Positions 5,103 to 20,274 of a stretch of 20,274 nt of DNA are shown piece after piece. Within the stretch, counting starts at the first letter, position 1. Every line of letters begins with the position of its first letter. The stretch lies in the IMG/VR virus record IMGVR_UViG_3300022707_001273, positions 1 through 20,274 of that record. One strand, given 5' to 3'. The translations under genes and the position numbers were made by a program. Source of the stretch: a virus. Under the pieces are notes generated by a model that searched no databases, was not told the origin of the DNA, and saw only the letters and a list, made by a program, of their open reading frames with translations.

Positions 5103-7430
5103 TTAGGTTAATAATCCTGTTGCCTGAATTCTTGCCTCCAGTTCATTCAGGCGTGTTCTGATATTATCAAGAACAGCTTGCTCTGTGGCATCATAAACGG
5201 CATCAATGGCTGTGACATCTATTGCAGTTAAAGCGACACCCTTAAATAATTTAATAACATCACCCAATTCAGTCCTGAAATGTGGGGCAGCATTTCCGGC
5301 GACAATATCTGTTGAATACATTTGAAACATATTAGCCGGACTTGTAATTGGTACTACTCCATTTGCAATGCCGATTACCTTTGCTGCATTTGTGCCAAAT
5401 GTAGTTATACCAAGACCAAAATTCCCTTCCTCATCGACCCTTGCTCTTTCCACGAGACTTGCACCATTTCGGGTATGAATAGTAAAAGCACCTTTAACAG
5501 AGCCGGCGGTATTGTCCACCATTTCTCCAAGAATAGAAACTAAGTTTATTTTAGCATTTAGGCTGTCATTCATTGCAAGGTTCTGAACAACTCCAGCACC
5601 ATTTGTATTCAGACTTCTATATAACTCTAAAGCATTTTTAGTATTAAAAACAGTTCTTATGGAGAGCCTTGTGTTCCCCACCACTGCGTCTATTGTATCG
5701 CCAATTACGATATTTCCAGCCGAAGGTACAGGAACAATTAACATATCCCCTCCATCAAAGATGGTAAGAAGATCACCACCGCTTGAATTTTCAAAATTTG
5801 CCGTTGTAGTTGTATTGTTATTACCAGACCCCTTTACTGTAAATCTTGTATCAGTTACAGTTGTTCCAATACTCACATTTCCATCATTCCTAACATATAC
5901 CAATGGACTGCTTGCGGAATTGTCCAACTTCATTGCGAACGTTGCTGACGTTGCGCCTACGCCCTCAACATGAAGCCTTGCTGTTGCAGTTACACCGCCT
6001 AAAGCTAATTGCTTCCCAGTGTTATCCCATGTAAAATTAGAATCTGCACCAAACGAACCTCCATCATTGAATTGCAATTGCGTATCAGCCCCACTTGGTG
6101 ATCCTACATTTGCCAGGACAAACGCCCTTATCGACTGCTGTGTCGCCAATGCTGTGTCGTCGTCAGAACCAAACGCATCTTCGTCCAATATTTTATTGAC
6201 TGCAACCCCTGCGCTCAATGTGATCCCCCCATCTTTCAACAATACACCGTCAACAGTCACGCCTGCACCGGCTGTTTTCTCGTTGATTGTATCTGCATTG
6301 ATAGGATCAACAGTAATTCCAGAAACATCAAATGTCCCCTCAATATCAACCGCACTGGCAGAAACATCCTGGATCACACCGACTAATACATTCCTGTTGA
6401 AATTATTGGTCTGCATTTCAGCAACAATCGCTGCATCGGTCAGTTCGTTATACCTTACCTCCTGTAAATTGTTTAGGTTGGTCAGGATTGAGTTGGTTTT
6501 GACCTTGTTTCCAATCACCTGGTCATTGCCCCACTGGAACACGTCGATTGGGTTCAATGCCGGCGAAGTTGAATTCACAAAATCAGAGTTGGTTGTGACC
6601 ACGTTTTCCCTGCTGTCGGTTCGCTGAATAATTAGGTCTGCATCAAGATCATAAAGGATCATGTCGATCTCATTGACAAAGCTGTTGTCAGTTGAGGCCA
6701 GGGTGATCCAGTTGGTTGGGTCCTCGTCTGGTGGCAAGGGGGGTGATCCTCCTAACACGCCGGTCAAACTCTTGAATTGCTTGCCATTAAAAATAGTGAT
6801 GTCGTCAATATTCAATCCAGGTGATCCTGCATCAATTGTTGGGGTCCACACACCAATGTTTGAACCCTTTACATTCTGAAAATCAGGGTTCCTGGCAAGC
6901 AATGCACCATATAGTGAAACAGCGTCAGTTTTGAGGGCCTTTACGAACACGTCCCTGTCCGTGATGAAATACGTTTTGCCAGGCTTGAGTGTTTCTGCGT
7001 CCTTTAGAGCCACTATTCCTGCTCGGGTTACGCTTTCAACGTTGTTGTCAATAAAGTCACGTATATCGCCGGCTGTGATCTCGTCGGGGCCACCTAAATC
7101 CAGGGCAATATCTGTGTCTGGTTCGTGTGCAATGGTTGACAAAGATTGTTGCAACCATATTTCACTATCTGTGCCAGGCAGAATTCCCTGCTGATCATCG
7201 TCCGACACGAATTTCCACAACTTAGCATCAAAGGCCACAAGGACTGCGACCCCACCCTTGTATGTAAACCCATTGTCAAATGGTGTGATCAATAAAGGGT
7301 TTTCTAATAACGTGACTGCGTTGAATATCGCAATGAAATTATTGTCAACCTCTGTCGATGTTAATTCAGACCCCTTTGTGGAAAGGGGCAGGAAATTAAC
7401 AATCCTTAGTATGATGTCCGTGATGCTCAT
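5103..7430 (-). CDS. Long tail fibre / receptor-binding protein (775 aa)
   Basis: The N-terminus holds the typical fibre-anchor phrase G-S-E-L-T-S-T-E-V-D-N-N-F (residues ~20-32). A long beta-rich shaft follows, with N-rich repeats and the TINEKTAGAGVTVDGVLLKDG segment (~380-400) that recurs in viral and phage fibre proteins. About residues 445-475 have GADTQLQFNDGGSFGADSNF, and later Gly/Asn blocks end in phrases like V-Y-V-R-N-D-G-N-V-S-I-G-T and RARVDEEGNFGLGI, the form of Bacteroidetes phage fibres with repeated beta-strand ends. The end carries HFRTELGDVIKL and a final coiled coil (IRTRLNELEARIQ), usual for trimerisation. It probably mediates host recognition. There is no obvious S74-type chaperone. 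It starts at the ATG at 7430 and overlaps the connector gene by 35 bases. Confidence 0.8.
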   Translation of the reverse strand: MSITDIILRIVNFLPLSTKGSELTSTEVDNNFIAIFNAVTLLENPLLITPFDNGFTYKGGVAVLVAFDAKLWKFVSDDDQQGILPGTDSEIWLQQSLSTIAHEPDTDIALDLGGPDEITAGDIRDFIDNNVESVTRAGIVALKDAETLKPGKTYFITDRDVFVKALKTDAVSLYGALLARNPDFQNVKGSNIGVWTPTIDAGSPGLNIDDITIFNGKQFKSLTGVLGGSPPLPPDEDPTNWITLASTDNSFVNEIDMILYDLDADLIIQRTDSRENVVTTNSDFVNSTSPALNPIDVFQWGNDQVIGNKVKTNSILTNLNNLQEVRYNELTDAAIVAEMQTNNFNRNVLVGVIQDVSASAVDIEGTFDVSGITVDPINADTINEKTAGAGVTVDGVLLKDGGITLSAGVAVNKILDEDAFGSDDDTALATQQSIRAFVLANVGSPSGADTQLQFNDGGSFGADSNFTWDNTGKQLALGGVTATARLHVEGVGATSATFAMKLDNSASSPLVYVRNDGNVSIGTTVTDTRFTVKGSGNNNTTTTANFENSSGGDLLTIFDGGDMLIVPVPSAGNIVIGDTIDAVVGNTRLSIRTVFNTKNALELYRSLNTNGAGVVQNLAMNDSLNAKINLVSILGEMVDNTAGSVKGAFTIHTRNGASLVERARVDEEGNFGLGITTFGTNAAKVIGIANGVVPITSPANMFQMYSTDIVAGNAAPHFRTELGDVIKLFKGVALTAIDVTAIDAVYDATEQAVLDNIRTRLNELEARIQATGLLT

Positions 7431-7998
7431 GGTCGTTTAAATTGTCGTGTATTCTGTTAGTGTGGTGTCTATCAGACCCCATCCGTGAAATTCTAACGCT
7501 GTTAGTTCTGCCGGTTCTTTTTCTACCTTCCCACAACGGATATTTATTGTCATTAATATTGCTATTCAAAAACGTGATAACATCACGCCAAAGTGCGAAC
7601 GCGCCGGCCTGGGCCTGCTTTGATTGCCTGGAAACTTCTATTGCATCAATCTTTGCGCTGTTTTCACCGGTCTTATTTACAAATCCATGTGGTGTGTCCT
7701 GTGCGTTCTTGCCGTTGATATATCGACCATATGCAAAGTAAACCAGTACCGCTTTAATGCCAGTGAACTCAACATCGTTCCCATCATCATCCTTGTAAAT
7801 CGCACCGTCAAGTAAAACAACATTATCTGGTTCCCCTGGATTGGTCACAACGTCCTGGAAAAAGGCATCACCCATTTGGGTTTTCAAATCAAAGTTCTGG
7901 GCCTCTGTAATGAACGGATCAAGCTGCCTGGCATCATTCTGGTTCAGACTGATCCTCTTGATCTTGTTGACATCAACGGATGTGATTAGGTTTGCCAT
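7396..7998 (-). CDS. Head-tail connector/completion-like protein, DUF6712-type (200 aa)
   Basis: The N-terminal part (S-V-D-V-N-K-I-K-R-I-S-L then D-P-F-I-T-E-A-Q, through the F-A-Y-G-R-Y-I region and the A-G-A-F-A-L-W-R-D-V-I-T-F-L segment) resembles the head-tail joining proteins of Bacteroidetes phages annotated as DUF6712, and it directly follows the portal gene. The likely role is in the connector between portal and tail. The last ~25 residues are His-rich, ending H-E-H-H-G-H-H-T-K-D-C. They are written over the first 35 bases of the tail fibre gene in another frame, so this tail may be shaped by the fibre start rather than by metal binding. The ATG at 7998 overlaps the portal TAA (TAATG). 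Confidence 0.6.
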   Translation of the reverse strand: MANLITSVDVNKIKRISLNQNDARQLDPFITEAQNFDLKTQMGDAFFQDVVTNPGEPDNVVLLDGAIYKDDDGNDVEFTGIKAVLVYFAYGRYINGKNAQDTPHGFVNKTGENSAKIDAIEVSRQSKQAQAGAFALWRDVITFLNSNINDNKYPLWEGRKRTGRTNSVRISRMGSDRHHTNRIHDNLNDHEHHGHHTKDC

Positions 7999-9107
7999 TA
8001 TGATGCAAAGGTAAAGGGTTTAATCTTGAAATCATTGGTGCTGTTGATTCCCCTGTGGAATTTCCTGAACACCCTTGCGAATGCCTCTGATAACATCATG
8101 CGCTCATCCTGTGTGGTTTTGTTATAGAACGCCTCTGAATCTATCAGCTGTTGGGTCTGCCCCAACTTGCCTGGCTGTGACTTAATGAACACCTCAGGGG
8201 TCAAAAATACTTGTCTGATATTTTCCTCGATGGATGATTCAGTGTGTTCAAACAGCTTGTCATGTTTGGGGCTTTGCAACACCTTTATGTCTGGGATGTC
8301 TTCGTCTCTCTCAACCTCAACCAACAGCATCGATGCAGCATTTTCGGCACCCTCAAAATCCTCCATGCTTTCAATAAACTCATCACGGTCACGGTCATTT
8401 TCAAACTTGCCCTTGTGTATAAAAAGATGGTCAGCTTTGAACCCTTTGCCCACTGCTCTGTTCTTGAAAATCTTGATACCTGAATCTGTATCAATGTCCT
8501 CCAGTACCGAATCAAAAATTGCTGTGGGATATGTATTGAATTCTGCTGACACCCATAAAATTTGACCCTTATACTGGCTGATGTCGCCGGCAGCTTTGAT
8601 CTGCTCTGAAATGATCAATGGGTCGGGGTTGAATACGTCAAAAAACTCAATGTCCTCTTTTCTGACGTGCTTTGATTTCTGACGTGCCCAATCTTTATGG
8701 ACGGCTATTTTGCCAAAGAACTCATTGCTGTCCGGCTTTGGTAGCCTGGTGCGTTCAAACGGCATAAAATTGACCTCACTGATCTCTAAATTTAGATTGT
8801 AATTGACATGAAGGGCGAACCCCTGCATAACTGAAAGGTCCTTTGCAGTAAGGGCCAGTAATTGATTTGCTGTAATCCCCTTTCGGTTCACAACGGACGA
8901 TGAAAACAATTCGTCCATAAATCCCTGGCCCCTCAAAAATCTACGATACCAATTCAGGCATGTTGTTGCAATACCACTTTGGGAAACGGCAACGATCATT
9001 CGCTGCGGATAGGCGTTGTCAATGTCGTAATTCAGAATCCCCTCGGTGTTGTTTTCCCGAATAGTGATCCTTTCCTGTAGCTGTTTTGCGACACTGTGCG
9101 CTCTCAT
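7998..9107 (-). CDS. Phage portal protein (369 aa)
   Basis: The portal forms the dodecameric channel at the head vertex through which DNA is packaged. The call is based on overall layout: an N-terminal part with I-A-T-T-C-L-N-W-Y-R-R-F-L, a central alpha/beta part, and a C-terminal helical segment Q-V-F-L-T-P-E-V-F-I-K-S-Q-P-G-K-L-G followed by S-E-A-F-Y-N-K-T-T-Q-D-E-R. That last piece is a common mark of phage portals, where helices line the clip and crown. At 369 residues it is shorter than most HK97/SPP1-type portals (about 400-500). Position also fits: it overlaps the 131-aa gene upstream (TAATG) and the connector gene downstream. No nuclease or protease motif is seen. Confidence 0.7.
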   Translation of the reverse strand: MRAHSVAKQLQERITIRENNTEGILNYDIDNAYPQRMIVAVSQSGIATTCLNWYRRFLRGQGFMDELFSSSVVNRKGITANQLLALTAKDLSVMQGFALHVNYNLNLEISEVNFMPFERTRLPKPDSNEFFGKIAVHKDWARQKSKHVRKEDIEFFDVFNPDPLIISEQIKAAGDISQYKGQILWVSAEFNTYPTAIFDSVLEDIDTDSGIKIFKNRAVGKGFKADHLFIHKGKFENDRDRDEFIESMEDFEGAENAASMLLVEVERDEDIPDIKVLQSPKHDKLFEHTESSIEENIRQVFLTPEVFIKSQPGKLGQTQQLIDSEAFYNKTTQDERMMLSEAFARVFRKFHRGINSTNDFKIKPFTFAS

Positions 9108-9502
9108 TACTTTTTCTTATTGCCGGTGACCAATGATTCCCAGTTCTTTGGGTAAGATTCAAAATATTGTAAGTATGCCTTGCTGATTCTCAACAACTGG
9201 ATGGAAATTTCGTCAGTGATGTTCGCCGTGTTGTACATGCCAACTGGACCAGACCGCGCCATCGTTCTGTCAATCAGTTTACTCGTTTTCAGCTTGAATT
9301 TCTTGTCCCTCATGACCTTGACCTCGTCCCATGTTAGGGCCATGACCTTGTCAAACGCCTTTCGCACAACAGATTCACAAGTCACACAGATTTTTTCGCC
9401 AAACAATGATTGATAGACATATCCTAATTGAACATACGAATCCTCATTGGTTAGGACTGCACCGATGCCGTCTTTTCTGAGTTTGTCAATTTTTCTTTTC
9501 AT
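9107..9502 (-). CDS. Hypothetical head-region protein with C-terminal 'MYNxxNxTDE' module (131 aa)
   Basis: No established family recognised. The N-terminal half has a CxxC pair (C39 and C42, I-C-V-T-C-E-S-V-V-R-K-A-F) in a helical context (Y-V-Y-Q-S-L-F-G-E-K), and residues 75-114 form a distinct module: KLIDRTMARSGPVGMYNTAN, T-D-E-I and a final Y-L-Q-Y-F. The same module occurs at the N-terminus of the glycosyltransferase at 17944-18792, with 22 of 40 residues identical and no gaps. It lies just before the portal gene, so it is probably a minor head or connector component. An intrinsic terminator just upstream should lower its expression relative to the capsid gene. Confidence 0.6.
   Translation of the reverse strand: MKRKIDKLRKDGIGAVLTNEDSYVQLGYVYQSLFGEKICVTCESVVRKAFDKVMALTWDEVKVMRDKKFKLKTSKLIDRTMARSGPVGMYNTANITDEISIQLLRISKAYLQYFESYPKNWESLVTGNKKK
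9161..9280 (-). repeat. Duplicated 40-residue coding module, copy in the 131-aa protein (residues 75-114)
   Basis: Residues 75-114 of the 131-aa protein match residues 10-49 of the glycosyltransferase (DNA 18646-18765) without gaps: 22 of 40 identical, concentrated in K-L-I-D-x-T-M-A, G-M-Y-N-x-x-N-x-T-D-E-I and Y-x-x-Y-F. Base-level similarity is visible but broken, for example around the shared GTTGTACAT on the plus strand, suggesting an old duplication or shared domain rather than a recent copy. Confidence 0.8.
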
Positions 9503-9575: not shown

Positions 9576-10154
9576 CTATTGCAGTAACGCTTCGACTATT
9601 GCCTTAGTTGTTGCCAGATCATTCAAAAATAATGTCGCCGGCAAATGTGCTTCCTTGCTCTGTTCAGAAGTTCTTAGCAGTATGTCCATTGCACCCTGCG
9701 TGTCAGCATTTTGCAAGGCCCTTTCAAGTTCCTGAACTTCCATACCAGTGTCGAGGCCGTAAATCTCGAATGCTACGTCACCGTTTTCACCCTTGAATTT
9801 GTTTTCAACGATGGCAACAATAAGGCCGTCAGCTTGCGCCTCGTATTCCCTTTTCGCTGCTGCATCAACCTCAAATGCCTTGTATCTGATTTCGTGATCG
9901 TACACGTTTGAGAAACGCTGCTTAACCAATCGTCCTGCCGGCTCAACAGAATTGTTTTTGCCCTGATAACTGAACGCCTTTGTACCAGATGCAAGAATTA
10001 TGGCTTCAATAATCTGCTTATTCTGCACATTCCTGACCACGCTTTCAATGTCACAGTGATTCAATAGGATCAATCGATCACTGACACCGCCGAACAGCTT
10101 ATTGACACAGTCAAACGCAATGTTCTTAGCTATTTTTCCGCAAAGATTACCCAT
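9576..10154 (-). CDS. Structural protein, probable tail-tube or head-decoration protein (192 aa)
   Basis: The protein begins M-G-N-L-C-G-K-I-A-K-N-I-A-F-D-C, followed by G-G-V-S-D-R-L-I-L-L-N, and has the central phrase G-T-K-A-F-S-Y-Q-G-K-N-N-S and then A-F-E-I-Y-G-L-D-T-G-M-E-V. From memory, this order (short Cys-containing start, 'DRLILIN', 'AFxYxGxxNS', 'AFEVYGxDxGL') recurs in structural proteins of Bacteroidetes phages and prophages, and a tail-tube or major virion protein is the usual suggestion. It is immediately downstream of the major capsid gene (36-base gap) and is followed by a terminator, consistent with a high-copy structural protein. The exact virion location is uncertain. Confidence 0.55.
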   Translation of the reverse strand: MGNLCGKIAKNIAFDCVNKLFGGVSDRLILLNHCDIESVVRNVQNKQIIEAIILASGTKAFSYQGKNNSVEPAGRLVKQRFSNVYDHEIRYKAFEVDAAAKREYEAQADGLIVAIVENKFKGENGDVAFEIYGLDTGMEVQELERALQNADTQGAMDILLRTSEQSKEAHLPATLFLNDLATTKAIVEALLQ

Positions 10155-10190: not shown

Positions 10191-11402
10191 TTAAAATGCA
10201 GCCTGAATCATGAAGTCCTCAATGACTTTGGCATCCAACTTGAACAGTGAATCGACAATCAATTCCTTGTCTTTTCTCTCGTGGAAAATATCCAAATCGC
10301 TCAGTGCAGATTCTTCTTCAATTCCCAAAGGAATATTGTCGATGGTTGTCAGAATCGCTCTGTGTGGCTTGTCTAACTTCACGCCATTGTCGAAATGCTC
10401 TGCAATAATTCGATCAGTGATGTCCAATTTGATGATTGGAATGTCATTGTATCTCAGGCTTTCACCATGTCCCTTTTCAATTCTCTCAAAAGATGAATTG
10501 ACGTTCTGAGTTTCCAGGAATGTTTCCAAATTATCCTGTAAAGTGTCAGTCCAGATATATACTTTGTTCTTGTGCCCCTTTAATCTCTTGTCGGCCTTTT
10601 GCTTTAGCTCTCTAAGAACAAGCAATGCACGATTGGCAGGCAAATTTAATTGGTCAACCTCCAATGCCTCATCGTTCTCAGGTATGATAACTCGCTGCTT
10701 TGGATTGGTAGTTGCAATGCTAAATATCTGCTTCCAGAGGCCATCAATGAGGTCAAAGAAAGGAACTTTCGCATCATCATTCAACAGTCCAACAGGCGAA
10801 CCCCCTGGGCCTTGAATGTCTCTGTCTCCAAACCATGCGATTCGATAAATTGCCTCCATTAACGCATCATCCAGGCGTTCCTCGATAAAGTTAGCAAAGT
10901 CGCCTGCCGTCAGGTCTGGTCGCTTTACACCCTTATCAAGTCCCCATGTAAAAAATGACTTTTCGAGGTCTTTGTAACACTGAACGATTCGTGTCTCAAC
11001 ACCCTCTGGGTCCCAGAACTTTTCTGATGTTGGTATTGTTACGCCAGAATCAGGTGTCTTGCAATTAACTGCTTTCTTACCTACTAACCCCATGCGCCCG
11101 AGCAATACGATTTGCTCTTTTGCGACAATTCCCTTGACAATCCTGTGAATCTTGTTTAATTCAGGTTTCTCAAATATGCTTTCAATGACAGCCTCCGAAA
11201 TGCTCATGATCTCGCGACCATTAAAGCTAAGTTGTGCCAGGTTAATCACGTTCATCAACACGCCCGTTGGCATTCCAGTTTGCAGGATAATACTACCTAC
11301 TAAAATTACAGGGGTCCATGCTGCGTTGCCCATTGCACTTGCTGCCCCAAAAGAAAATAGGACAGAAAAAATCAGACTGAGTATAATGTTAATAGCTTTC
11401 AT
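10191..11402 (-). CDS. Major capsid protein-like (403 aa)
   Basis: The call rests on position just after the protease-scaffold gene and on the C-terminal part: A-I-L-T-T-I-D-N-I-P-L-G-I, an acidic linker (E-E-E-S-A-L-S-D-L-D-I), then F-K-L-D-A-K-V. This resembles the P-domain and last strands of Bacteroidetes phage capsid proteins. The fold was not proven. The first ~24 residues are odd for a capsid protein: MKAINIILSLIFSVLFSFGA, then A-S-A-M. They form a signal-peptide-like leader with a possible cleavage after ASA, followed by a second hydrophobic stretch to about residue 55. The leader may be removed by the head protease during maturation, or it may target the membrane. It starts at the ATG at 11402 and lies 57 bases after the protease gene. 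Confidence 0.7.
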   Translation of the reverse strand: MKAINIILSLIFSVLFSFGAASAMGNAAWTPVILVGSIILQTGMPTGVLMNVINLAQLSFNGREIMSISEAVIESIFEKPELNKIHRIVKGIVAKEQIVLLGRMGLVGKKAVNCKTPDSGVTIPTSEKFWDPEGVETRIVQCYKDLEKSFFTWGLDKGVKRPDLTAGDFANFIEERLDDALMEAIYRIAWFGDRDIQGPGGSPVGLLNDDAKVPFFDLIDGLWKQIFSIATTNPKQRVIIPENDEALEVDQLNLPANRALLVLRELKQKADKRLKGHKNKVYIWTDTLQDNLETFLETQNVNSSFERIEKGHGESLRYNDIPIIKLDITDRIIAEHFDNGVKLDKPHRAILTTIDNIPLGIEEESALSDLDIFHERKDKELIVDSLFKLDAKVIEDFMIQAAF

Positions 11403-11459: not shown

Positions 11460-12644
11460 TTATTCAGGCTTTTTCGCACCCTTGTAATCTTTCTTTCGCT
11501 CATGTCCAGCAGTCACGCGATTTTCAGGATCAACCACTTTAGGTACATGGACAGGTCCACTTCCACCCTCAGGCACATAATCACTTGAAATCATCTTACC
11601 AAAGGTCTGTAGCTGTGCAAGCATAGCAACATTCATTTGGTTTTGCAGATTTTGTCCTGCGCTTATCGTATCAATAGAAGTTTTAAGCCCTGCGTTTTGA
11701 GCAACTACGCCGGCAATTGCAGCCTGCGTTGCAGGGTCAGTGACCTTTGCAGCAGCAGCAGTGGCGGCAGCAGCAGCAGCACTTGCAGCATCGTCTGTTT
11801 TTGGTGTGATAGCCGTGATTTTTCCGTCGGCAACTGATATTGAACTGCCGTCACTCATTACATAATCCCCGTCTGGTGCAGGCTGCCCGTCAAGGGTAAC
11901 AACATCACCAACAGCCGGTGTTCCGCTTTCTGTGACCACAACAATTTGTCTGCCATCTGCCAATGTCAATGTGACATCTGCGTGTTGACCGTTCTGAATA
12001 TTTCTCAATGGGTTTTTCATAAACTCCATCATTGTGGCAAGCATTTGTTCCATCTGACTGTTTCCGCTTGCAGGATCAATTTTCAATTTTCCCTTAGGTA
12101 TGTACGCAACCGGCACAACCTCATTGACAATCTCAGTCACAAATTTCAGGCTCAATGCTTTGTCAGGGTTCATTTCTGTCTCCTTTTTCATAAGTGCATC
12201 CAGGCTTTCTTTTGGAATTCCTGTTTTCTCATGATAAAAATTGATGATTTTGTTTTCAGCCAATTTCAATTGGTCTGCTGCCTCCTTTACTTCATCAGAA
12301 TCGCCTGCAATTATTCCCCAGGGATTGTGTATTGTGAAGTCACTGCCAGGCGTGATTGTCCTGGTTGATCCTGCCAATGCAATGATGGTTGCGATTGACT
12401 TACAATTTTCTTCAATTTGTGTATGAACGGTTTTGCCCAATCCAACCAGGTGATTGTATATATCAAATCCGGCCTGAACATTACCCCCCTGGCTGTTGAT
12501 GTGAACAACAATACCCTCTGCATCTGGCTTTGCGTTGATGGCTGCAATTACATCCTCCAATTCAATACCGACTTCCTTTTCGCCTTGATCGTTAATGAAT
12601 GAACCAATTAGGCCGTAAATATAAACGTGAACAAAATTTTTCAT
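11460..12644 (-). CDS. Head maturation protease (ClpP/S14-like) fused to scaffold-like C-terminus (394 aa)
   Basis: The N-terminal ~180 residues are a ClpP-type serine protease. The strand HINSQGGNVQAG (48-59) is the substrate-binding element, S83 in C-K-S-I-A-T is the nucleophile, H106 in F-T-I-H-N-P-W-G is the base, and D161 in M-N-P-D-K-A-L-S the acid, so the triad looks intact. The C-terminal half is scaffold-like: an acidic beta segment (DVTLTLADGRQIVVVTESG, then A-V-G-D-V-V, P-D-G-D-Y and D-G-S-S-I-S-V-A-D-G-K-I), an Ala-rich linker, helices, and a basic end. Such protease-scaffold fusions are common in phages and are cleaved after head assembly. It starts the head group, reading away from the plus-strand gene. 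Confidence 0.85.
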   Translation of the reverse strand: MKNFVHVYIYGLIGSFINDQGEKEVGIELEDVIAAINAKPDAEGIVVHINSQGGNVQAGFDIYNHLVGLGKTVHTQIEENCKSIATIIALAGSTRTITPGSDFTIHNPWGIIAGDSDEVKEAADQLKLAENKIINFYHEKTGIPKESLDALMKKETEMNPDKALSLKFVTEIVNEVVPVAYIPKGKLKIDPASGNSQMEQMLATMMEFMKNPLRNIQNGQHADVTLTLADGRQIVVVTESGTPAVGDVVTLDGQPAPDGDYVMSDGSSISVADGKITAITPKTDDAASAAAAAATAAAAKVTDPATQAAIAGVVAQNAGLKTSIDTISAGQNLQNQMNVAMLAQLQTFGKMISSDYVPEGGSGPVHVPKVVDPENRVTAGHERKKDYKGAKKPE

Positions 12645-12780: not shown

Positions 12781-13320
12781 ATGAAAATTGTGAACATTTT
12801 GGGCACAGGCCCGTCATTAAAACACTATACGCCGGACGAAAACGAGACAATTGGGGTCAATAATATTTGGGAATTTCACCAAACTGACTACATCGTTTGC
12901 GTGGACAAGCCGGCACGATTTGAACCCAAACGCCTGGCACAAATCAAGGTATCGAAACCAGGACTTTTTTACACTCATCTATTAGAGGATTGGGCACCGT
13001 TTATTGGAACAGCTTTCAAAATAAATCTGGCACCCATACGAGGATCGGTTGACACCCTGGATGATTATGGACGTATTTGTTGGTCTAACAACAGCACATA
13101 TGTTGCTGCTGTCATGGCCTTTCACCACAAGGCAGACAGGATCATCCTGCATGGCGTTGACTTTACTGGACACAAGGATTTGTCGCAACCGGCAATTCAG
13201 AAAAAAGCCATTGATGATTTCGTGAAACTGTTTTTAGCACTCAATAAACGCAACGTGGAATTGCTCGTTGGGTCGAACGATTCAATGCTGTCGGGCAAAA
13301 TCCCTGTCCTTAAATCTTAA
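12781..13320 (+). CDS. GT42 sialyltransferase / DUF115 (MptE)-like Rossmann protein (179 aa)
   Basis: This is the only plus-strand gene. The N-terminus V-N-I-L-G-T-G-P-S-L (residues 4-13) followed by T-I-G-V-N-N, and the later S102-N-N-S-T-Y-V-A-A-V-M-A with D-R-I-I-L-H-G-V-D-F-T-G-H, match in order the nucleotide-binding frame of CMP-sialyltransferases such as CstII (GNGPSL, SGVYMCAVAIA, YLSGIDFY) and of DUF115/MptE-like proteins. It probably transfers or handles a nucleotide-activated group such as a sugar, but at 179 residues it is shorter than CstII (about 290) and the substrate is unknown. It has its own palindromic promoter region and converges with the downstream glycosyltransferase gene, overlapping it by 11 bases. 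This is probably an independently regulated (moron-like) unit. Confidence 0.6.
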   Translation: MKIVNILGTGPSLKHYTPDENETIGVNNIWEFHQTDYIVCVDKPARFEPKRLAQIKVSKPGLFYTHLLEDWAPFIGTAFKINLAPIRGSVDTLDDYGRICWSNNSTYVAAVMAFHHKADRIILHGVDFTGHKDLSQPAIQKKAIDDFVKLFLALNKRNVELLVGSNDSMLSGKIPVLKS

Positions 13321-14083
13321 TCCCAAAATAGTTGGGGACCTCTTTGATTTTCCTGCCTTTGAAGTAACTGACACCCACGTTTGATTCCAATGTGTATTCA
13401 TTATACTCGTCAACAAACCCCTGGATTTTGTGTTTCCAATTTACACTGGCTGCTGCGTTGTCGAACTTGTCCTGGATGTCATTACGGACCATTGAAAAGT
13501 GGTGCATCATAATCTCGTCCTGTGGGAACGTGTGAAATGAATTTGCCGGCGAAATTCTGACGGCAGGGTCCACTGTTATTGGGTAGTGGTTTTCCGTGAC
13601 AACAGTTGTCTCGGGATATAGCTTGCAGATGAACGGCATGGCATAATCTTCAATAGGTGTCAACTGCCATGTGGGATGCTTGTAATAGGTGTACATCATT
13701 GTCAGCGTGACATCAACGTCCAGTTGTTTGGCCCTGTACTTTGCGACCTCGAATTCGCCAGGCATATAATAGTGATCCGTTGCGCTCGTGAAGTAGTGCG
13801 TGCATTCCAATCCTTTTGCCAGTTCCAACCTCAATTGGTATTTCCTGCGCTCGTTTTCTTTGGTTCCAATGGCCAGGTCGGGCCGGTATTCAATCAAATG
13901 AATTTTGGGGTTCGTGGTGATCAATGACAGCATTTGATTCATCGATTCTGATGCAGGATTTCCCTGGTTCGATACATTCTGATAGCATATGATTAAGAGA
14001 TCAACCTTGTCGTAAATCTGCTCAATGGAACCCATGAGCAATTCCATGCCATTGAAAACAGAATACATGGCTGCCAGTTTCAT
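13310..14083 (-). CDS. GT-A-like glycosyltransferase, phage/capsule type (257 aa)
   Basis: The N-terminal A-A-M-Y-S-V-F-N-G-M-E-L-L, then K-V-D-L-L-I-I-C-Y-Q-N-V-S-N-Q-G-N, follows the form of the nucleotide-sugar-binding start of GT2-related enzymes found in phages and capsule loci. The segment T-K-E-N-E-R-R-K (residues 74-81) and the acidic T-S-A-T-D-H-Y-Y (D103 as likely DxD-equivalent metal ligand) match the 'NExxK...D.D.FY' pattern of that group. It is expected to transfer a sugar to an unknown acceptor. The gene overlaps the upstream LbH acyltransferase by ATGA (ATG at 14083), and its end overlaps the plus-strand GT42-like gene tail to tail. Fold assignment is from motifs only. Confidence 0.65.
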   Translation of the reverse strand: MKLAAMYSVFNGMELLMGSIEQIYDKVDLLIICYQNVSNQGNPASESMNQMLSLITTNPKIHLIEYRPDLAIGTKENERRKYQLRLELAKGLECTHYFTSATDHYYMPGEFEVAKYRAKQLDVDVTLTMMYTYYKHPTWQLTPIEDYAMPFICKLYPETTVVTENHYPITVDPAVRISPANSFHTFPQDEIMMHHFSMVRNDIQDKFDNAAASVNWKHKIQGFVDEYNEYTLESNVGVSYFKGRKIKEVPNYFGIKI

Positions 14084-14625
14084 TCTGCCTGGTCGTGTTC
14101 GCTCTCAATAATTTCCAGGTGCCGTTGCTGCTTTGCAGGGTTTCCATAAACCAACAGGCCGGTTCCTACATCCTCAACAACATTGGATCGCATCCCAATG
14201 ATATTATCATGACCAATTTTCAGCCGGTTACGTATGGCCACTGCCGTTTTGATATGGTTATGGTTGCCAATCTTAGTGTGGCCACAAATGATTGTCTTTG
14301 CGCCGATCTCATTTCTGTTTCCAACCCTTACATTGTGGCCAATGTTCACATAATTCATTATCAGGTTATCGTCGCCGATTCTCGTGTTGCCTTTGTCGCC
14401 GGCCATGACCGTTGCGTGACATCCGATTTGGTTGTTGTCGCCGATGATCACCTTGCCGGTCTTCGATTCTGCTGATCTTATGAACCCCATTTCACCGATC
14501 ACGGCATATGGCATGACCACGTTGCCGGTTCCCATCCTCACATTGCTGCCAATGATTGCAGTTCTATGGATTAAGTTGCCGTCAATATTGATATAATTTT
14601 CGTCGTATAGATTTTCATTTGACAT
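14080..14625 (-). CDS. Left-handed beta-helix (hexapeptide) acyltransferase, LpxA-like (181 aa)
   Basis: Dense hexapeptide repeats of the form I/V-G-x-x-x-x with paired I, V and N run through most of the chain, e.g. I-I-G-S-N-V-R-M-G-T-G-N-V-V-M and I-G-D-N-N-Q-I-G-C-H-A-T-V. The later T-R-I-G-D-D-N-L-I-M-N-Y-V-N-I-G-H-N (GH pair) and I-C-G-H-T-K-I-G-N-H resemble the LpxA core ('TrIGdnn...yvHiaHd', 'aGhv.ig'). The end, L-V-Y-G-N-P-A-K-Q, is the usual C-terminal cap. It probably transfers an acetyl or acyl group to a nucleotide sugar. The ATG at 14625 was chosen; an upstream in-frame TTG at 14742 would add 39 residues without any repeat and overlap the methyltransferase gene further. Confidence 0.8.
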   Translation of the reverse strand: MSNENLYDENYINIDGNLIHRTAIIGSNVRMGTGNVVMPYAVIGEMGFIRSAESKTGKVIIGDNNQIGCHATVMAGDKGNTRIGDDNLIMNYVNIGHNVRVGNRNEIGAKTIICGHTKIGNHNHIKTAVAIRNRLKIGHDNIIGMRSNVVEDVGTGLLVYGNPAKQQRHLEIIESEHDQAE

Positions 14626-15121
14626 AATGGTACAGTTTATAGGTGATTCCCTGGGTTGATTTACATGCGAATTTCTCTTTGCCAATGTAGTCATGTGGCC
14701 ACCAGAATTTTCCTTGCCTTTCATTGGCCTCAACCATGACAATGTGTTTCCTGGATATGCGCTGCAATTGTTTCATTATCTCATCAATTTCCTCTATATG
14801 ACACAACACTGAGTTAGTGAACACCAGGTCAAATGCGTTGTCTGGAATGTCTTTCAAACTCAGTTCGTCCCCAACCTCAACCGTATTCAGTTTGTTGATG
14901 AAACGCGCTTCAAATATCTGCGTAGCATTTAGATCGATTCCAAAAACAACGAATCCTTTTTTCCTGAAATGCAACAGATGCCGACCAACATTGCAGCCAA
15001 ATTCAAACACGGATTGAATACCGTTCAGCCGTTCAATGAACTTATAGGTCAGCCGGTTGACGTTGCTGAATTTTCGTTGTGGGTGAAATTGTGCCGTGTA
15101 GTGTTCCTTTGCCTGGTCCAT
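14615..15121 (-). CDS. Class I SAM-dependent methyltransferase (168 aa)
   Basis: The SAM site is readable: motif I S-V-F-E-F-G-C-N-V-G-R-H (residues 37-48), the acidic G-I-D-L-N (D63) that ends strand 2, and the post-motif N-A-F-D-L-V-F-T-N-S-V-L-C-H-I (residues 95-109), typical of small-molecule or sugar methyltransferases of the Methyltransf_11/25 kind. The substrate cannot be told; in this setting an O- or N-methylation of a sugar or its activated form is likely. It is somewhat short (168 residues versus ~200 or more for typical members) and ends shortly after the C-terminal Y-K-L-Y-H-Y. It starts at the ATG at 15121, 2 bases after the previous stop, and overlaps the LbH gene by 11 bases. 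Confidence 0.8.
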   Translation of the reverse strand: MDQAKEHYTAQFHPQRKFSNVNRLTYKFIERLNGIQSVFEFGCNVGRHLLHFRKKGFVVFGIDLNATQIFEARFINKLNTVEVGDELSLKDIPDNAFDLVFTNSVLCHIEEIDEIMKQLQRISRKHIVMVEANERQGKFWWPHDYIGKEKFACKSTQGITYKLYHYVK

Positions 15122-15123
15122 TG

Positions 15124-16356
15124 TCAGTGCTTTTCTGTGTGTTCGTAAGTCATGGCCATGCCGTATAATTTCAATTCATATACGTTGGCAGCAATCTGTT
15201 TCATCCCCTCACGGTTCAAATAGAAACGCCAGGGTTGTGCATCCCTGATTTCAGGAACGTGGGAAAACTCCTGATAAAATTTTGAGTAATGATAAGCAGC
15301 TTTCATTTCATTCGCCCTGGCTGTTGACATGACCAGGTTGTACAAATGGCCTACGAAATACGGTGTGGTGTCGCCCAGGTTCCTGCACATTTCCAACCTG
15401 ACCTGATCCCTGCCTCGTGCGTGCTTACCAGCATCCATGTCTAAATGAAAATAACAGTCAGTGTCGATCCATTTGAAATACGATTCAGGGCAGCGAAATG
15501 CCAGTTCCAAAAATTCATAGGCCAAATACGGCAGGATCATGTCGTTCCATTGATGGTACCCTTTCGCCAGTTTGATCCGTCCCAAACCCATGTTCGTCGT
15601 CAAATCCTCATATCTGTTTTCTGTGAATTTCTTTTTAGGGGCATACAATGGATAGGAAAATATCTCACCACCAAACAATCCCTGGACACAGTTGAACGTA
15701 TGTTCCTGGCCAATTGGCACGAGATCATCCCAGAACGATACTGTGGGCCTCAAATACCCATTGACCGATCCTGTGAACTCACCCATGTTGTGACAGTTCA
15801 CATCCTCCAAATGGTCCTTATTATATATACTGTACTGATCCCTTCGCCATCCCTGTTTCCTCATCAATTCCTCGAACCCATAAAGGGCCTCTGTTCCATG
15901 TGATCTGAAATGAATATCACCCAGGAACTTGTCGCCATGCTCACGTCTGATGTTGGCCAGGATGTATGTGATGATCCTTGAATCCATACCCATTGACGTG
16001 AAAACGATTGTGGGTTTTGAGTTGTCCCAAACCTTTACCAGGTATTCAGTCAACGTTTGAATCAACATGTCTGCATACTTCGTGACATGAAGTTCCTTGT
16101 CGTCCAACTTGTCCATTGGCTTTTCCAGGTGTTTCCACTTCTTTGGGATTTTAGGCCATACAATTTCCACTTCATTGAACAGCATTTGTGAATTGTCCTT
16201 TGCCATGAAGTCAGGGTTGATCGTCAGGGTCGGTTCCTGGTCCATAATATATGCCAGGCTTAAATCGATTTCGCCGGTTGTCTTTGACTTATATAATGGC
16301 GTCATGACCAATGTGTGCAGCCATGACCCTTTGTTTTTTGTGTGTGCTAATTTCAT
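15124..16356 (-). CDS. Asparagine-synthetase-like ATP pyrophosphatase domain protein (410 aa)
   Basis: The central T-I-V-F-T-S-M-G-M-D-S-R-I-I (residues 116-129; S121, D125, S126) is a PP-loop, the ATP-binding signature of the asparagine synthetase B C-terminal domain (usual form SGGxDS). The later I-L-P-Y-L-A-Y-E-F-L-E-L-A-F-R-C-P-E (residues 274-291) matches the 'PFLDxxvvefalxlP' segment of AsnB. No N-terminal Cys2 glutaminase domain is present, so it would use free ammonia, a partner amidotransferase or another nucleophile. AsnB-like enzymes of this kind amidate uronic acids in some O-antigen loci or activate acids by adenylation. It overlaps the upstream glycosyltransferase by ATGA (ATG at 16356). 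The substrate is unknown. Confidence 0.7.
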   Translation of the reverse strand: MKLAHTKNKGSWLHTLVMTPLYKSKTTGEIDLSLAYIMDQEPTLTINPDFMAKDNSQMLFNEVEIVWPKIPKKWKHLEKPMDKLDDKELHVTKYADMLIQTLTEYLVKVWDNSKPTIVFTSMGMDSRIITYILANIRREHGDKFLGDIHFRSHGTEALYGFEELMRKQGWRRDQYSIYNKDHLEDVNCHNMGEFTGSVNGYLRPTVSFWDDLVPIGQEHTFNCVQGLFGGEIFSYPLYAPKKKFTENRYEDLTTNMGLGRIKLAKGYHQWNDMILPYLAYEFLELAFRCPESYFKWIDTDCYFHLDMDAGKHARGRDQVRLEMCRNLGDTTPYFVGHLYNLVMSTARANEMKAAYHYSKFYQEFSHVPEIRDAQPWRFYLNREGMKQIAANVYELKLYGMAMTYEHTEKH

Positions 16357-17063
16357 AGATTCTGAATGAGTTTGTAGTTGGGAAATTGTTGTTGGATTTC
16401 GTAGAAAGGAATTTCAGTGTAATTGGGTCGCATCACAAATTTAGTAATATTGGCCGGTGTCTTAATGTCAATAATCATCAACCCCTCGTCTTTCAGTCGG
16501 TATTCGTGCCGGTCATGTGGCGCTGATTTCAGCCGGTCCCTGCTGACCCCATCCAGGCCCCTGAATATATGGTCACTCCACAATCGCCAATCCACACCAT
16601 CCAGAACTCGTTTGCTCACCACCCTACCAACAGCCATTGGTTCGCCCTGTCTTTGGTTGACATATCCAATACTGTGAACCGCCTTTTTTGAAACTGCATC
16701 ATAATAATATAGGTCCATGTTCACGATCTCATCAATGCCCTGGCCCATCAGCCCCAACATGTATTCAAACGTCTTTGGACTGACCACATCGTCCGATCCC
16801 AGGAAAAGAACATAGTCTGGTTTCAGTTTTTTACAGGCCATCAAACGCCGGTTCGCCTTTCTGCCAATGGGTTGATTTCTTACCTCTATATAATGGAACG
16901 CGAAACTGGCCACGAGTTCCCTGGACACCTTGCCCTCACTGCCGGCAACCATCACCTCGATTTCGATGTCAGGGAATGAATCAACAAGCTGTTGGGCGCA
17001 AGCTGCCCACACCTTGAACACCTCAGGCCTTTGCCACATCATTGTTGCGATTACGACTTTCAT
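16353..17063 (-). CDS. GT2-like glycosyltransferase (236 aa)
   Basis: A single GT-A-type domain. It starts M-K-V-V-I-A-T-M-M-W-Q-R-P-E-V (nucleotide-binding strand and loop), and residues 84-95 carry Y-V-L-F-L-G-S-D-D-V-V-S, whose S-D-D (D91, D92) stands where the metal-binding DxD of GT2 enzymes lies. The region I-G-R-K-A-N-R-R-L before it fits the sugar-nucleotide pocket. The C-terminal third is short and lacks membrane segments, so it is likely soluble. It probably transfers a hexose or amino sugar to an unknown acceptor. The ATG at 17063 overlaps the TGA of the LbH gene and its own TGA overlaps the AsnB-like gene start. Confidence 0.75.
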   Translation of the reverse strand: MKVVIATMMWQRPEVFKVWAACAQQLVDSFPDIEIEVMVAGSEGKVSRELVASFAFHYIEVRNQPIGRKANRRLMACKKLKPDYVLFLGSDDVVSPKTFEYMLGLMGQGIDEIVNMDLYYYDAVSKKAVHSIGYVNQRQGEPMAVGRVVSKRVLDGVDWRLWSDHIFRGLDGVSRDRLKSAPHDRHEYRLKDEGLMIIDIKTPANITKFVMRPNYTEIPFYEIQQQFPNYKLIQNL

Positions 17064-17773
17064 TTTTGCTTGTCCAATAATTCTTGCGCTATCTCAATTG
17101 CTTCATTCTGGCATTCCTGTGGGGTCTGAAATAATTCTGCGCTGTAATGCTCAGTACCATAATCAACATAATATGAATACAATGTTCTGTTACCGCTTAA
17201 ACTTTTTCCGTTTCCTTCAATCCTAACATCAATTCCCTTTGCATTGAACGCCCTGCATTTTCTTTCAAAATCATCCAACTTTTTTGCAGGGACACCAACA
17301 TATGTTCCTGGGTCCATTAAATTCTCGTTGACGAATGACATTGCACCAACAATGATGTCGGCTGCAATCTTTGTTTTGGCTGCAATATACACACCGGCAC
17401 CAATATAGGCACGCGCCTGGATCACTGTGCCATGTTCTGTTTTCCTTTTCGCTGTTGACCCCAGGGTCACGGCCCTTGCACCCATGAACACACCTTCCTG
17501 GATCACCACGTAACTTGTCAGGATCACCCCCCATTTCAATGTGACGTTCTTGCCGATCTCACAATGCTTGCCGGTCTTGACTGATCCCTGCAAAACCGAA
17601 TTGTCATGAATCAATGTGCCATCCTCTATTTGACAATAGTTGCCAATTGTCACATTGTTACCAATAAATACATCCTTGCCAATCACACAATACATGCCGA
17701 TTTTTGAACCGTTGCCGATCCGAACTGATTCATGCACTTCAGAATATTTACCTATCTGATCACTTCTCATCAT
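17060..17773 (-). CDS. Left-handed beta-helix (hexapeptide) transferase with C-terminal helical tail (237 aa)
   Basis: About residues 8-150 consist of hexapeptide turns (V-R-I-G-N-G-S-K-I-G-M-Y, then I-G-K-D-V-F-I-G-N-N-V-T-I-G). The block G-V-F-M-G-A-R-A-V-T-L-G-S, then A-Y-I-G-A-G-V-Y-I-A-A-K-T-K-I-A, ending T-Y-V-G-V-P-A-K-K, is the WbpD/UDP-sugar N-acetyltransferase type of coil. The C-terminal ~70 residues (about 170-237) are charged and helical and lie outside the helix; they could dock a partner. It probably acetylates an amino sugar nucleotide. Two consecutive ATGs (17773 and 17770) can start it; the second is equally possible. It overlaps the 66-aa gene by 14 bases. Confidence 0.75.
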   Translation of the reverse strand: MMRSDQIGKYSEVHESVRIGNGSKIGMYCVIGKDVFIGNNVTIGNYCQIEDGTLIHDNSVLQGSVKTGKHCEIGKNVTLKWGVILTSYVVIQEGVFMGARAVTLGSTAKRKTEHGTVIQARAYIGAGVYIAAKTKIAADIIVGAMSFVNENLMDPGTYVGVPAKKLDDFERKCRAFNAKGIDVRIEGNGKSLSGNRTLYSYYVDYGTEHYSAELFQTPQECQNEAIEIAQELLDKQK

Positions 17774-17960
17774 TTATTTTTGCCAATTCCTTAATTCTGT
17801 TCCACCGTTCTATTTTCAGTTTTTCAATAGCCGTTTGCAAATCTGCATTATACTGTTTGCCCTCTGTTGAACGGTTGTAATTCATGGACTGTAATTTCAG
17901 CCTTTCTAATTCCGATTCAGCCACCGCAATAGCATCGTTATATTCAATTACCGTTGTCAT
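17760..17960 (-). CDS. Small coiled-coil protein (66 aa)
   Basis: A 66-residue, highly helical, charged protein with heptad-like spacing in two parts: about residues 9-25 (AIAVAESELERLKLQS) and 40-62 (LQTAIEKLKIERWNRIKELA), joined by a short turn rich in Asn, Gly and Ser. I do not recognise a family. Its layout is faintly like small head-joining proteins of the gpW kind (helix, short beta turn, helix), but this rests on length and helix pattern only. It overlaps the upstream glycosyltransferase by 17 bases and the LbH gene by 14, so it is tightly co-translated with the sugar cassette. It could be an adaptor or assembly protein. Confidence 0.5.
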   Translation of the reverse strand: MTTVIEYNDAIAVAESELERLKLQSMNYNRSTEGKQYNADLQTAIEKLKIERWNRIKELAKINDEK

Positions 17961-18792
17961 AGTTCATATAAAATTCAAATGATTGGGGATCAACCAACCC
18001 CCTTAAATGCGCCCCGTCAGGATCGCTGATGTCACAGATGTTTCCGTTATGGCCCTGACCACCACACACGCCGATGCCATGCTTGATGCCGGTTGCCAAC
18101 TTGCCGATGTCGAACATCTTGCCTTTCATTTTCGCCCACAACTTCAGGTCCAGGAACACGGTGTCGTCACTCGGCCAATCGATATTCAACCCACCCCTGA
18201 TGCTTGTATTCATCATACTCGAATGCCTGGGGGTCAGCATGAATTTATATTTCTTGTCAAAGATGTGATAATAAGTTGTTGACGTTGAACCAATGAGTTC
18301 CAGGCCTGGGTTCTGTTCCCATAATTTCATGACCGTTTCAATATATTGTGGATGGTAATAATCATCATCCTCCCAACAAATTACCACGTCATATTTCTTT
18401 GCCAGGTCATATCCCATGCGATACCTCTGTGTCAGGTCCTTTCGCTTTCCTCGGGGTTCGTGGTCTATAATTATCACATCGTCAGGCCTTACAGTTTGAT
18501 TGTTCAGCAGCTTTAATCCGTGATCCAGGAGTTTGATTCTGTCACCCCTTGTTGGGATGATCACCGCGCACGTCAGCGTGGGTCTATACTTAGGATAGAC
18601 TTGCATGGCAGCAGGGGCAACCACTTTCAGGGGATCTACTTTTTTGAAATATTTGGCATATCCAGGGTGATTGTCAATGAGTTGTTTGGCAATCTCGTCG
18701 GTCATATTGCTTGCGTTGTACATTCCCTGTGGGGGTTGTTTGGCCATTGTGGTGTCGATCAATTTGCCTGGCAGCAATTCATACTTACTCAT
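17944..18792 (-). CDS. GT2-like glycosyltransferase with N-terminal virion-derived module (282 aa)
   Basis: Two parts. Residues 10-49 (K-L-I-D-T-T-M-A, G-M-Y-N-A-S-N-M-T-D-E-I, Y-F) match the C-terminal module of the 131-aa head-region protein (22 of 40 identical, no gaps). Residues ~74-282 are a GT-A transferase: T-C-A-V-I-I-P-T-R-G-D-R (75-85) at the nucleotide site, and C-W-E-D-D-D-Y-Y-H-P (residues 139-148; D142-D144) as the metal-binding acidic motif, then a catalytic C-terminal part with G-V-C-G-G-Q-G-H-N. The fused module suggests the enzyme is held on, or brought to, a phage component, perhaps to glycosylate a virion protein. The ATG at 18792 overlaps the upstream 80-aa gene. The donor and acceptor are unknown. 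Confidence 0.75.
   Translation of the reverse strand: MSKYELLPGKLIDTTMAKQPPQGMYNASNMTDEIAKQLIDNHPGYAKYFKKVDPLKVVAPAAMQVYPKYRPTLTCAVIIPTRGDRIKLLDHGLKLLNNQTVRPDDVIIIDHEPRGKRKDLTQRYRMGYDLAKKYDVVICWEDDDYYHPQYIETVMKLWEQNPGLELIGSTSTTYYHIFDKKYKFMLTPRHSSMMNTSIRGGLNIDWPSDDTVFLDLKLWAKMKGKMFDIGKLATGIKHGIGVCGGQGHNGNICDISDPDGAHLRGLVDPQSFEFYMNYDNGN
18646..18765 (-). repeat. Duplicated 40-residue coding module, copy in the glycosyltransferase (residues 10-49)
   Basis: This is the partner of the module at 9161-9280. The shared residues cluster in K-L-I-D-x-T-M-A, G-M-Y-N-x-x-N-x-T-D-E-I and Y-x-x-Y-F, with no gaps. Here it sits at the start of an enzyme instead of at the C-terminus of a head-region protein, so the module can be moved as a unit. 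Confidence 0.8.
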
Positions 18793-19031
18793 GCTTGTAC
18801 TGTTCTGATGATTCTGTAAACTGTTGATTCCTCAATGCCAAATTCTGTTGCAGTGTTCATTTTGGCCTGGCGTTTATCTTCGCCGGTTTTGATTTCCTTG
18901 TCGTAAAATAGGAAAACTTCTCGATAAAATTTGATAGTTGGTGAAATAATACCGGCCCTCACGAGGTCAACCATGAGGCCTGGCCTGGCTGCATTCAGGG
19001 CAGCTTCCATTTCATCGAATAATCCGATCAT
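18789..19031 (-). CDS. Small C-terminal helix-turn-helix protein (80 aa)
   Basis: The C-terminal 25 residues read as a helix-turn-helix: A-K-M-N-T-A-T-E-F-G-I-E-E-S-T-V-Y-R-I-I-R-T-V, with G-I at the turn and the S-T-V-Y-R-I-I recognition helix. From memory this resembles a family of small phage proteins ('xxxTAxeFgvsxxTVyrIikxm'). The first ~50 residues are helical and could form a dimerisation part. It may be a DNA-binding late regulator or a terminase small-subunit-like packaging protein, and the sequence does not decide which. It lies between the tape-measure gene and the sugar cassette with ATGA overlaps at both ends (ATG at 19031). Confidence 0.6.
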   Translation of the reverse strand: MIGLFDEMEAALNAARPGLMVDLVRAGIISPTIKFYREVFLFYDKEIKTGEDKRQAKMNTATEFGIEESTVYRIIRTVQA

Positions 19032-20274
19032 ACTTGTCCTCTTGCTTCAACATCAATTGTGTCCTGCTGCCCTGCGTTGATGGCCTCAATCGTGACAACT
19101 GGACGTGGTAAATTCTGGATCGCGCTGATAAGCTGCTGACCCAATGACAGCCTGGTGTCCAATGGTTCACTAATATTGCGTTGTGTGATCCCACCGTCCT
19201 GGAACATCACACCACCACTGTGGGCAAACTTAACACCACCACCGGCCTGATTCAGATTGCTCAGTCCCTTCAACATGCCTGTACTGTTCTTATTCAACAC
19301 GGTAATCAATTCATCCCTTTCAGCAATGAACGTGTTGCCATCTTCGCCCCAATACTGTGTGCCCCCACCGCTATGAGGATCACCACCAACCATCATTGAG
19401 TTGGCCACACCACCACGACCCAATGACTTGATCGCGTTTCGTTGCTTGACCGCACTGGCTATTTGCACTAATCCAGTGGCACCTATAAGAACGGCACCAA
19501 TGGCCCCTGCAATAGGTCCTAACTGTGCGAACGCCTGCATGATGGACAATGCAGTGCTTGCAATTATCTGTGCGATATTGATGGCCAGTTGCTTGTCTGC
19601 AAACTTCTTTTCGATCTCTTTTTTCTTGTCAGCATTGTCACCGGCCTCTTGCAGTTCCAGTTGCTTTTGAGCAGACACAAAATTTCCCAGGGCACCCAGT
19701 ATTTTCTGAACATCCCTGACGTTCTGCTGATCCTTTGCGAACGATCTGGTCCTTGCATCGTCTTTGGTTTTCTCAATGGCCTTTTCATTCTTAGCAATTA
19801 TCAGCCGGCGTTGGTCTTCGGTCAATTGCTCATTGGCCAGGATCGTGGCCGTCCTTAGATTAAGGAACTCGATTTTGGCTGCCAGGTCTTCCTCGTCCTG
19901 TAAAATAGTCAGTTCAACGGCTAACAGGCGATTCTCTTGTTGGTCCAGGAACCTTTCCTCGTCTGCTGCCTTTTCTATTGCAGTTAGATTGTCCTGGTGT
20001 GTTTTCTCTAATTCCAACAACAGTGCATCTGCTGCCTCAGTGTTGCCGAACTTTTGCCGGATGGCCTCTGCCTCGCGTTTGGCCCTTTCGTTTTCAATGG
20101 CAATCCTCTTTTCCTCACCTTCCTCAAGGTTCCCAATCTCTGCATCAATCTGCGCCCTGGACAATTCAATTGCAATTTTGGTCGCTGCAATTGCCTCTTT
20201 GGTGCGCGCGCTGTTGATCTTGTTTTCCTCTGCCCTGGCCTCATCATTTAATGTGTTCAGTTCTCTTTGGATTG
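19028..20274 (-). CDS. Partial: tail tape-measure protein, C-terminal part (over 400 aa visible)
   Basis: The right window edge cuts this gene. The frame stays open past the TTG at 20164 with the preceding residues ...S-A-R-T-K-E-A-I-A-A-T-K-I-A-I-E-L, so that codon is not the true start. About 240 residues of charged coiled coil (R-A-K-R-E-A-E-A-I-R-Q-K-F-G-N, L-T-E-D-Q-R-R-L-I-I-A-K-N) lead into the tape-measure hallmark L-A-I-N-I-A-Q-I-I-A-S-T-A-L-S-I-M-Q-A-F and A-I-G-A-V-L-I-G-A-T-G-L-V-Q-I, followed by Gly-rich segments (G-G-G-V, H-S-G-G-V) and a Ser/Gln-containing end. Tape-measure proteins fix tail length and occupy the tail lumen; a long tail (sipho- or myo-like) is therefore expected. 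The TGA overlaps the next ATG. Confidence 0.85.
   Translation of the reverse strand, partial: IQRELNTLNDEARAEENKINSARTKEAIAATKIAIELSRAQIDAEIGNLEEGEEKRIAIENERAKREAEAIRQKFGNTEAADALLLELEKTHQDNLTAIEKAADEERFLDQQENRLLAVELTILQDEEDLAAKIEFLNLRTATILANEQLTEDQRRLIIAKNEKAIEKTKDDARTRSFAKDQQNVRDVQKILGALGNFVSAQKQLELQEAGDNADKKKEIEKKFADKQLAINIAQIIASTALSIMQAFAQLGPIAGAIGAVLIGATGLVQIASAVKQRNAIKSLGRGGVANSMMVGGDPHSGGGTQYWGEDGNTFIAERDELITVLNKNSTGMLKGLSNLNQAGGGVKFAHSGGVMFQDGGITQRNISEPLDTRLSLGQQLISAIQNLPRPVVTIEAINAGQQDTIDVEARGQV

Follow-up and report, generated by a model that had tools for sequence, protein, structure and literature searches.

Glycosyltransferases that modify the particle of the phage encoding them have been described in mycobacteriophages, where both capsid and tail tube are glycosylated (PMC12363180, PMC11256854, citing Freeman et al. 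2023). As described in these two papers, Che8, Corndog and Myrna encode such enzymes, and the proposed targets are the phage's own structural proteins, as they are here; in those mycobacteriophages the glycans have been demonstrated, whereas the phage considered here is known from its genes alone, and hosts and genes differ. The two papers report no docking domain derived from a structural protein. A second point of comparison is provided by phage T4, whose internal proteins share a capsid targeting sequence (PMC3012670), i.e. a tag that is common to otherwise unrelated proteins and takes them to the assembling head; that tag serves packaging into the scaffold core, whereas the module described below is linked to the portal gene and is carried by an enzyme.

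The fusion glycosyltransferase and its locus

The stretch of DNA analysed here (20,274 bases, hereafter the window) is a virus record that is probably a fragment. Its minus strand carries, in order, a tape measure protein that runs beyond the edge of the window (19028–20274; phrog_25337, E = 1e-10), a conserved 80-residue protein (18789–19031), a sugar cassette, a ClpP-type head maturation protease (11460–12644; phrog_94, E = 3e-42), a major capsid protein candidate (10191–11402; phrog_38780, kept in 102 loci and with a BS-TP3 relative that bears a capsid annotation), a conserved structural protein of 192 residues (9576–10154; phrog_21217, E = 4e-20), a 131-residue protein (9107–9502; phrog_37138, E = 9e-5, unknown function), the portal protein (7998–9107; phrog_11226, E = 4e-75), a conserved 200-residue neighbour (7396–7998) and a fibre gene. 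The position of the 80-residue protein between tape measure and cassette is kept in related loci, and it has weak matches to small DNA-binding phage proteins.

The cassette is bordered by a conserved MptE/sialyltransferase-like gene on the plus strand (12781–13320; phrog_4603, E = 0.0015, with PF01973 at noise level), which occupies the same place in about 20 related loci. The remaining cassette genes lie on the minus strand and encode a probable glycosyltransferase (13310–14083; 49% identical to a cassette gene of locus L036, no Pfam family), an LpxA/NeuD-like left-handed beta-helix acyltransferase (14080–14742, true start probably the ATG near 14622), a methyltransferase (14615–15121) whose nearest curated model, below cut-off, is a pseudaminic-acid-associated methylase, a 410-residue protein without a family match (15124–16356), a family-2 glycosyltransferase (16353–17063; PF00535, E = 4e-8), an LpxD/NeuD-like beta-helix acyltransferase (17060–17773), a 66-residue protein without a family match (17760–17960) and the 282-residue fusion glycosyltransferase (hereafter the GT; 17944–18792), whose ATG overlaps the stop codon of the 80-residue gene. 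To the eye, the stretch SMGMDSR in the 410-residue protein looks like a PP-loop ATPase motif. The GT gene thus shares the strand of the structural genes, is start–stop coupled to its neighbours and lies inside the late gene block. A variable cassette of this kind recurs (12781–18792 in the window; L138, L141 and about 20 loci within L142–L218). The literature terms that we tried returned nothing on glycan cassettes in Bacteroidetes phages.

AlphaFold2 modelling of the GT predicts an N-terminal module (residues 1–50; 18643–18792, minus strand) of short strands with helices at residues 32–41 and 43–48 and pLDDT values of 86–95, a flexible linker (residues 51–70; 18583–18642, pLDDT about 60) and a catalytic domain (residues 71–282; 17947–18582, pLDDT mostly above 90) that contains EDDDYY and GIKHGIGVCGGQGH. 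The layout predicted with high confidence, in which two well-modelled domains are joined by some 20 flexible residues, is that of a tethered enzyme. The catalytic domain matches PF00535 with E = 5e-4, below the Pfam cut-off, and its model matches GT-A structures, namely WrtF (Z 14.2, rmsd 2.4 over 154 residues) and, similarly, TarS and SpsA (Z about 14). In view of this predicted GT-A fold, the acidic D-x-D-like motif and the phage orthologues, with which EDDDYY and GIKHGxGxCGGxGH are kept, we assign residues 71–282 as a GT-A/family-2 glycosyltransferase domain.

Residues 10–49 of the GT (18646–18765, minus strand) and residues 75–114 of the 131-residue protein (9161–9280, minus strand) are identical at 22 of 40 positions without gaps, exactly as the preliminary description of this DNA had stated; the layouts that it gave for the two proteins, a helical CxxC domain followed by the module and a module followed by a GT-A enzyme, also proved correct. 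BLASTP widens the alignment to GT residues 3–50 against residues 68–115 (24 of 48 identical, 53.9 bits, E = 4e-14), and tblastn of the whole virus record places the module at these two sites only (E = 1.9e-10); within the window, a common segment of this kind links these two unlike proteins alone. Identities at the three codon positions are 56, 69 and 35%, which indicates that the copies are old and constrained at the protein level rather than an echo of assembly. Chance similarity is ruled out by the BLASTP E-value, as is a recent duplication or assembly artefact by the 35% identity at third positions and by the GT's own start and stop coupling.

The module in pre-portal proteins and the origin of the fusion

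In the 131-residue protein (AlphaFold2 mean pLDDT 92), the helical CxxC domain (residues 1–66) precedes the module (residues 67–122; 9137–9304, minus strand). When the module consensus was compared with 50,697 phage records, 68 matched, at one place each and in Bacteroidales phages only, two of the 68 being named just 'Bacteriophage sp.' or by a strain code; the sites checked lay directly before the portal gene. Likewise, nearly all IMG/VR relatives of the portal with enough upstream sequence have a module gene, of 120–230 codons, that ends near the portal start. An unbiased DNA-pattern scan yielded 80 contigs, most of them new. Across all loci scanned, wherever the sequence after a true module gene is long enough (roughly 80 distinct genes), the portal is always next, its open frame beginning between −114 and +20 bases from the end of the module gene; the cases with no following portal are contig ends and the GT of the window. 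Among 79 records searched whole, 70 have one module, eight have none and the window alone has two. This pattern, one module per record and always before the portal, argues for a conserved domain of the pre-portal protein, and we accordingly assign the shared unit of about 50 residues, from its sequence and gene context, as the C-terminal domain of a pre-portal protein that is conserved among Bacteroidetes phages. Two loci (L037, L041) have a related portal and no module gene; there the nearest recognised upstream gene is of the 192-residue type, and the portal match begins about 150 bases after it.

The members of this family (in the Bacteroides phages BS-TP3, EMB1 and C2_18_80S2P, among others) are annotated as hypothetical and follow one plan, namely a helical domain that in most cases has cysteines, followed by the module and by a charged tail of variable sequence; nearly invariant positions of the module core are few (N, T, D, A, F). 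The sequence and predicted fold of the module are common to these proteins and the GT, in which the segment has about 50 residues, the core N-x-T-D-x-x-A...F and a match to the family profile (E = 1.6e-22, against 5.9e-23 for the copy in the 131-residue protein, both being rows of that profile). However, the GT has the module alone, neither a CxxC domain in front nor the portal directly behind, whereas the 131-residue protein has both; the GT carries a pre-portal domain without itself being a pre-portal protein.

Structure searches with the 131-residue model gave no convincing match in the PDB, the best being a ribosomal chain (Z 4.7) that aligns with the helical part only, in a search that barely covered the module; the viral structure models that match are uncharacterised phage proteins only. 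No Pfam or NCBIfam family matches the module, and plasmids yielded nothing convincing. A general cellular domain was considered and rejected: a scan of genome contigs with one strict DNA pattern, which cellular copies worded differently could escape, gave one true match and otherwise chance hits. The one match, in contig L016 from a Clostridia MAG, is a pre-portal gene of the Bacteroides type that closely resembles the one in phage EMB1, and the phage-like contig is probably a mis-binned phage or a prophage. Within what was searched the module is thus confined to phages and this one MAG contig, so that the spread through unrelated cellular proteins, which the preliminary description had named as evidence against its proposal, was not seen; nor was the recurrence at the ends of other enzymes that it had anticipated, in the 79 whole records, the other loci or the 80 GT loci described next.

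IMG/VR contains at least 456 stretches that code for relatives of the GT, and the module is absent from all of the best 80, which we compared. If the first ATG is taken as the start and double-GT proteins are set aside, these 80 start at the catalytic domain or at most 29 residues before it. The flanks of 22 of the 80 include recognisable head or tail genes, and in most of those 22 the GT lies between the tape measure/80-residue gene and the opposite-strand MptE-like gene, with the protease following; the orthologues in this same interval also have no module. The cassette GTs of L139/L184, L140/L217, L143, L175, L190, L202, L203 and L218 occupy the locus of the window's GT and are 34–43% identical to it in the catalytic domain, and those read base by base (two orthologues) have the same ATG overlap with the stop of the 80-residue gene; unlike the window's GT, they carry neither the module nor any similar extension at the N-terminus. 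Since the orthologous enzymes start with their catalytic part, the module was added to the enzyme and is not an original piece of it: a pre-existing cassette GT was extended at its N-terminus by some 70 residues (module and linker), a unique, lineage-specific change to a late-operon enzyme that is known from one contig. Initial protein scans aimed at direct relatives of the fusion and of the 131-residue protein gave no match. Some cassettes (L141:5812–7185; also L190, L191 and L202) join this GT to a second, downstream GT domain within one open frame of 415–460 residues.

The added module is intact. In leave-one-out profile scoring it reaches 52.3 bits and the 131-residue copy 50.4 bits (ranks 46 and 48 of 53 modules), and when neutral mutation of the 131-residue copy was simulated at the full observed divergence or at half that value, none of 2000 runs attained the observed score (maximum 37.7 against 43.4 bits). 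Together with the codon-position identities, this shows that the module protein is constrained and that the two copies split long ago. The module of L084 is 48% identical to that of the GT, about as close as the window's own copy, and a tree of 53 modules over 55 columns does not resolve the donor. The GT's module could thus have been taken recently from the pre-portal gene of another phage, and an intact sequence would then be uninformative about function in the GT, so that intactness does not amount to proof of such a function.

Possible roles of the module

We tentatively favour a mechanism in which the module docks the GT at the portal or connector region of the assembling virion, where a virion protein is glycosylated; of the readings considered this is the best supported, short of proof. 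In this lineage a copy of the pre-portal domain came to stand before a GT in a variable sugar cassette of the late structural operon, and it would have kept its ancestral binding partner, most likely a portal or connector component or the pre-portal protein itself; the strict linkage of the module to the portal gene makes a partner at the portal vertex the first candidate. The GT would then be held at the assembling head–tail junction, and the tethered enzyme would add to a nearby virion protein a sugar that the rest of the cassette makes or trims; the cassette encodes LpxA/LpxD/NeuD-type acyltransferases, a methylase closest to the pseudaminic-acid type, and further GTs. Docking would be unnecessary for the cassette in general, given the syntenic GTs that have no module. 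The T4 targeting sequence is short, and the module is not a short peptide tag of that type but a predicted folded domain.

The earlier interpretation, recruitment of the enzyme through a partner common to both module-bearing proteins, is supported in part, in that the module is a portal-linked and, as predicted, separately folding unit on the GT, and in that the fusion is specific, the syntenic orthologues being without it. The further claim of a new kind of system goes too far, since GTs with which mycobacteriophages modify the capsid and tail tube of their own particles are already on record (PMC12363180, PMC11256854); the new part would be the docking domain. If the module does dock, the locus would illustrate how a phage can direct a modifying enzyme to a single site on its particle, and would provide a small transferable tag for the portal vertex. 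Even without docking, the module defines a portal-linked family of unknown function in Bacteroidetes phages, gut Bacteroides phages included, and the cassette that recurs between tape measure and protease opens virion glycosylation in these phages to direct test.

The restriction of the fusion to one contig, with all 80 of the GT relatives fetched (the best of at least 456) managing without the module, would also fit an accidental accretion, i.e. an in-frame recombination of a pre-portal fragment before the GT that is tolerated without function; phage modules often recombine, and the tree identifies no donor. Against this, the profile score and core residues have been kept despite saturated third positions, and the fusion has a clean start codon context and a proper linker, for which reasons we regard accretion as improbable, although these arguments lose force if the capture was recent and from an unsampled phage. 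It is similarly unlikely, in our estimation, that the module is a self-association or folding unit, giving oligomers of the GT, or of the GT with the pre-portal protein, and altering stability or activity with no recruitment to the virion. Its small size, its predicted independent folding and the few near-invariant core positions, which suit conservation for fold stability better than for a specific surface, are compatible with such a role, and portal vertex proteins usually act as rings; however, there is no sign of the module oligomerising elsewhere, and it occurs on no other enzyme in the loci searched.

Alternatively, the cassette might modify the host surface or another non-virion target, at which the module would bind a factor of the host or of assembly, and virion glycosylation would play no part. 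Some phages do change the O-antigen or teichoic acid of their host, and the GT2 enzymes, LpxA/LpxD/NeuD-like acyltransferases and methylase do resemble surface-polysaccharide genes. Surface-modifying phage genes are, however, usually expressed early or in lysogeny, whereas in about 22 phages this cassette is embedded among the late structural genes, and a pre-portal domain would be an odd envelope anchor; we therefore give this explanation little weight.

Putative internal start codons in pre-portal genes

In the main branch of the pre-portal family, 49 of 52 diverse sequences have a methionine 2–8 residues before the first aromatic residue of the module. The bases before the corresponding internal ATG are rich in A (84% at −12, 71% at −13 and 69% at −3, with no T at −3), in contrast to the other internal ATGs of the same genes (31, 20 and 35%, respectively), and the portal start codons of the same phages have a similar context. 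In Flavobacterium johnsoniae, A at −3, −6, −12 and −13 affects initiation positively, and U at −3 is less frequent in well translated genes (PMC6847099). The agreement of the two contexts suggests that the module may also be made alone, as a free product of a nested start, in this one large branch. Codon choice contributes to the A-rich context, wobble-position A being enriched beyond synonymous shuffles (z about 6.7, a value overstated by the relatedness of the genes). The branch found in gut Bacteroides, Phocaeicola and Parabacteroides has no such internal start context, and the nested start is therefore not universal.

The first methionine of the GT corresponds to the internal methionine of the pre-portal genes. 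Of the 49 internal ATGs, that of the window's 131-residue gene has the poorest context, whereas the GT start has a good one. These observations, made in one phage, would be in keeping with a relocation of the free module onto the GT. A bolder and somewhat more speculative version of the docking reading, which we hold with correspondingly greater reserve, is that the borrowed pre-portal domain docks the GT at the portal vertex and that the GT replaces the free module, the internal start context having been lost in this phage. An in-frame internal ATG just before the module is present in the window (9311–9334) and likewise, for example, in L020, L028, L031, L036 and L042.
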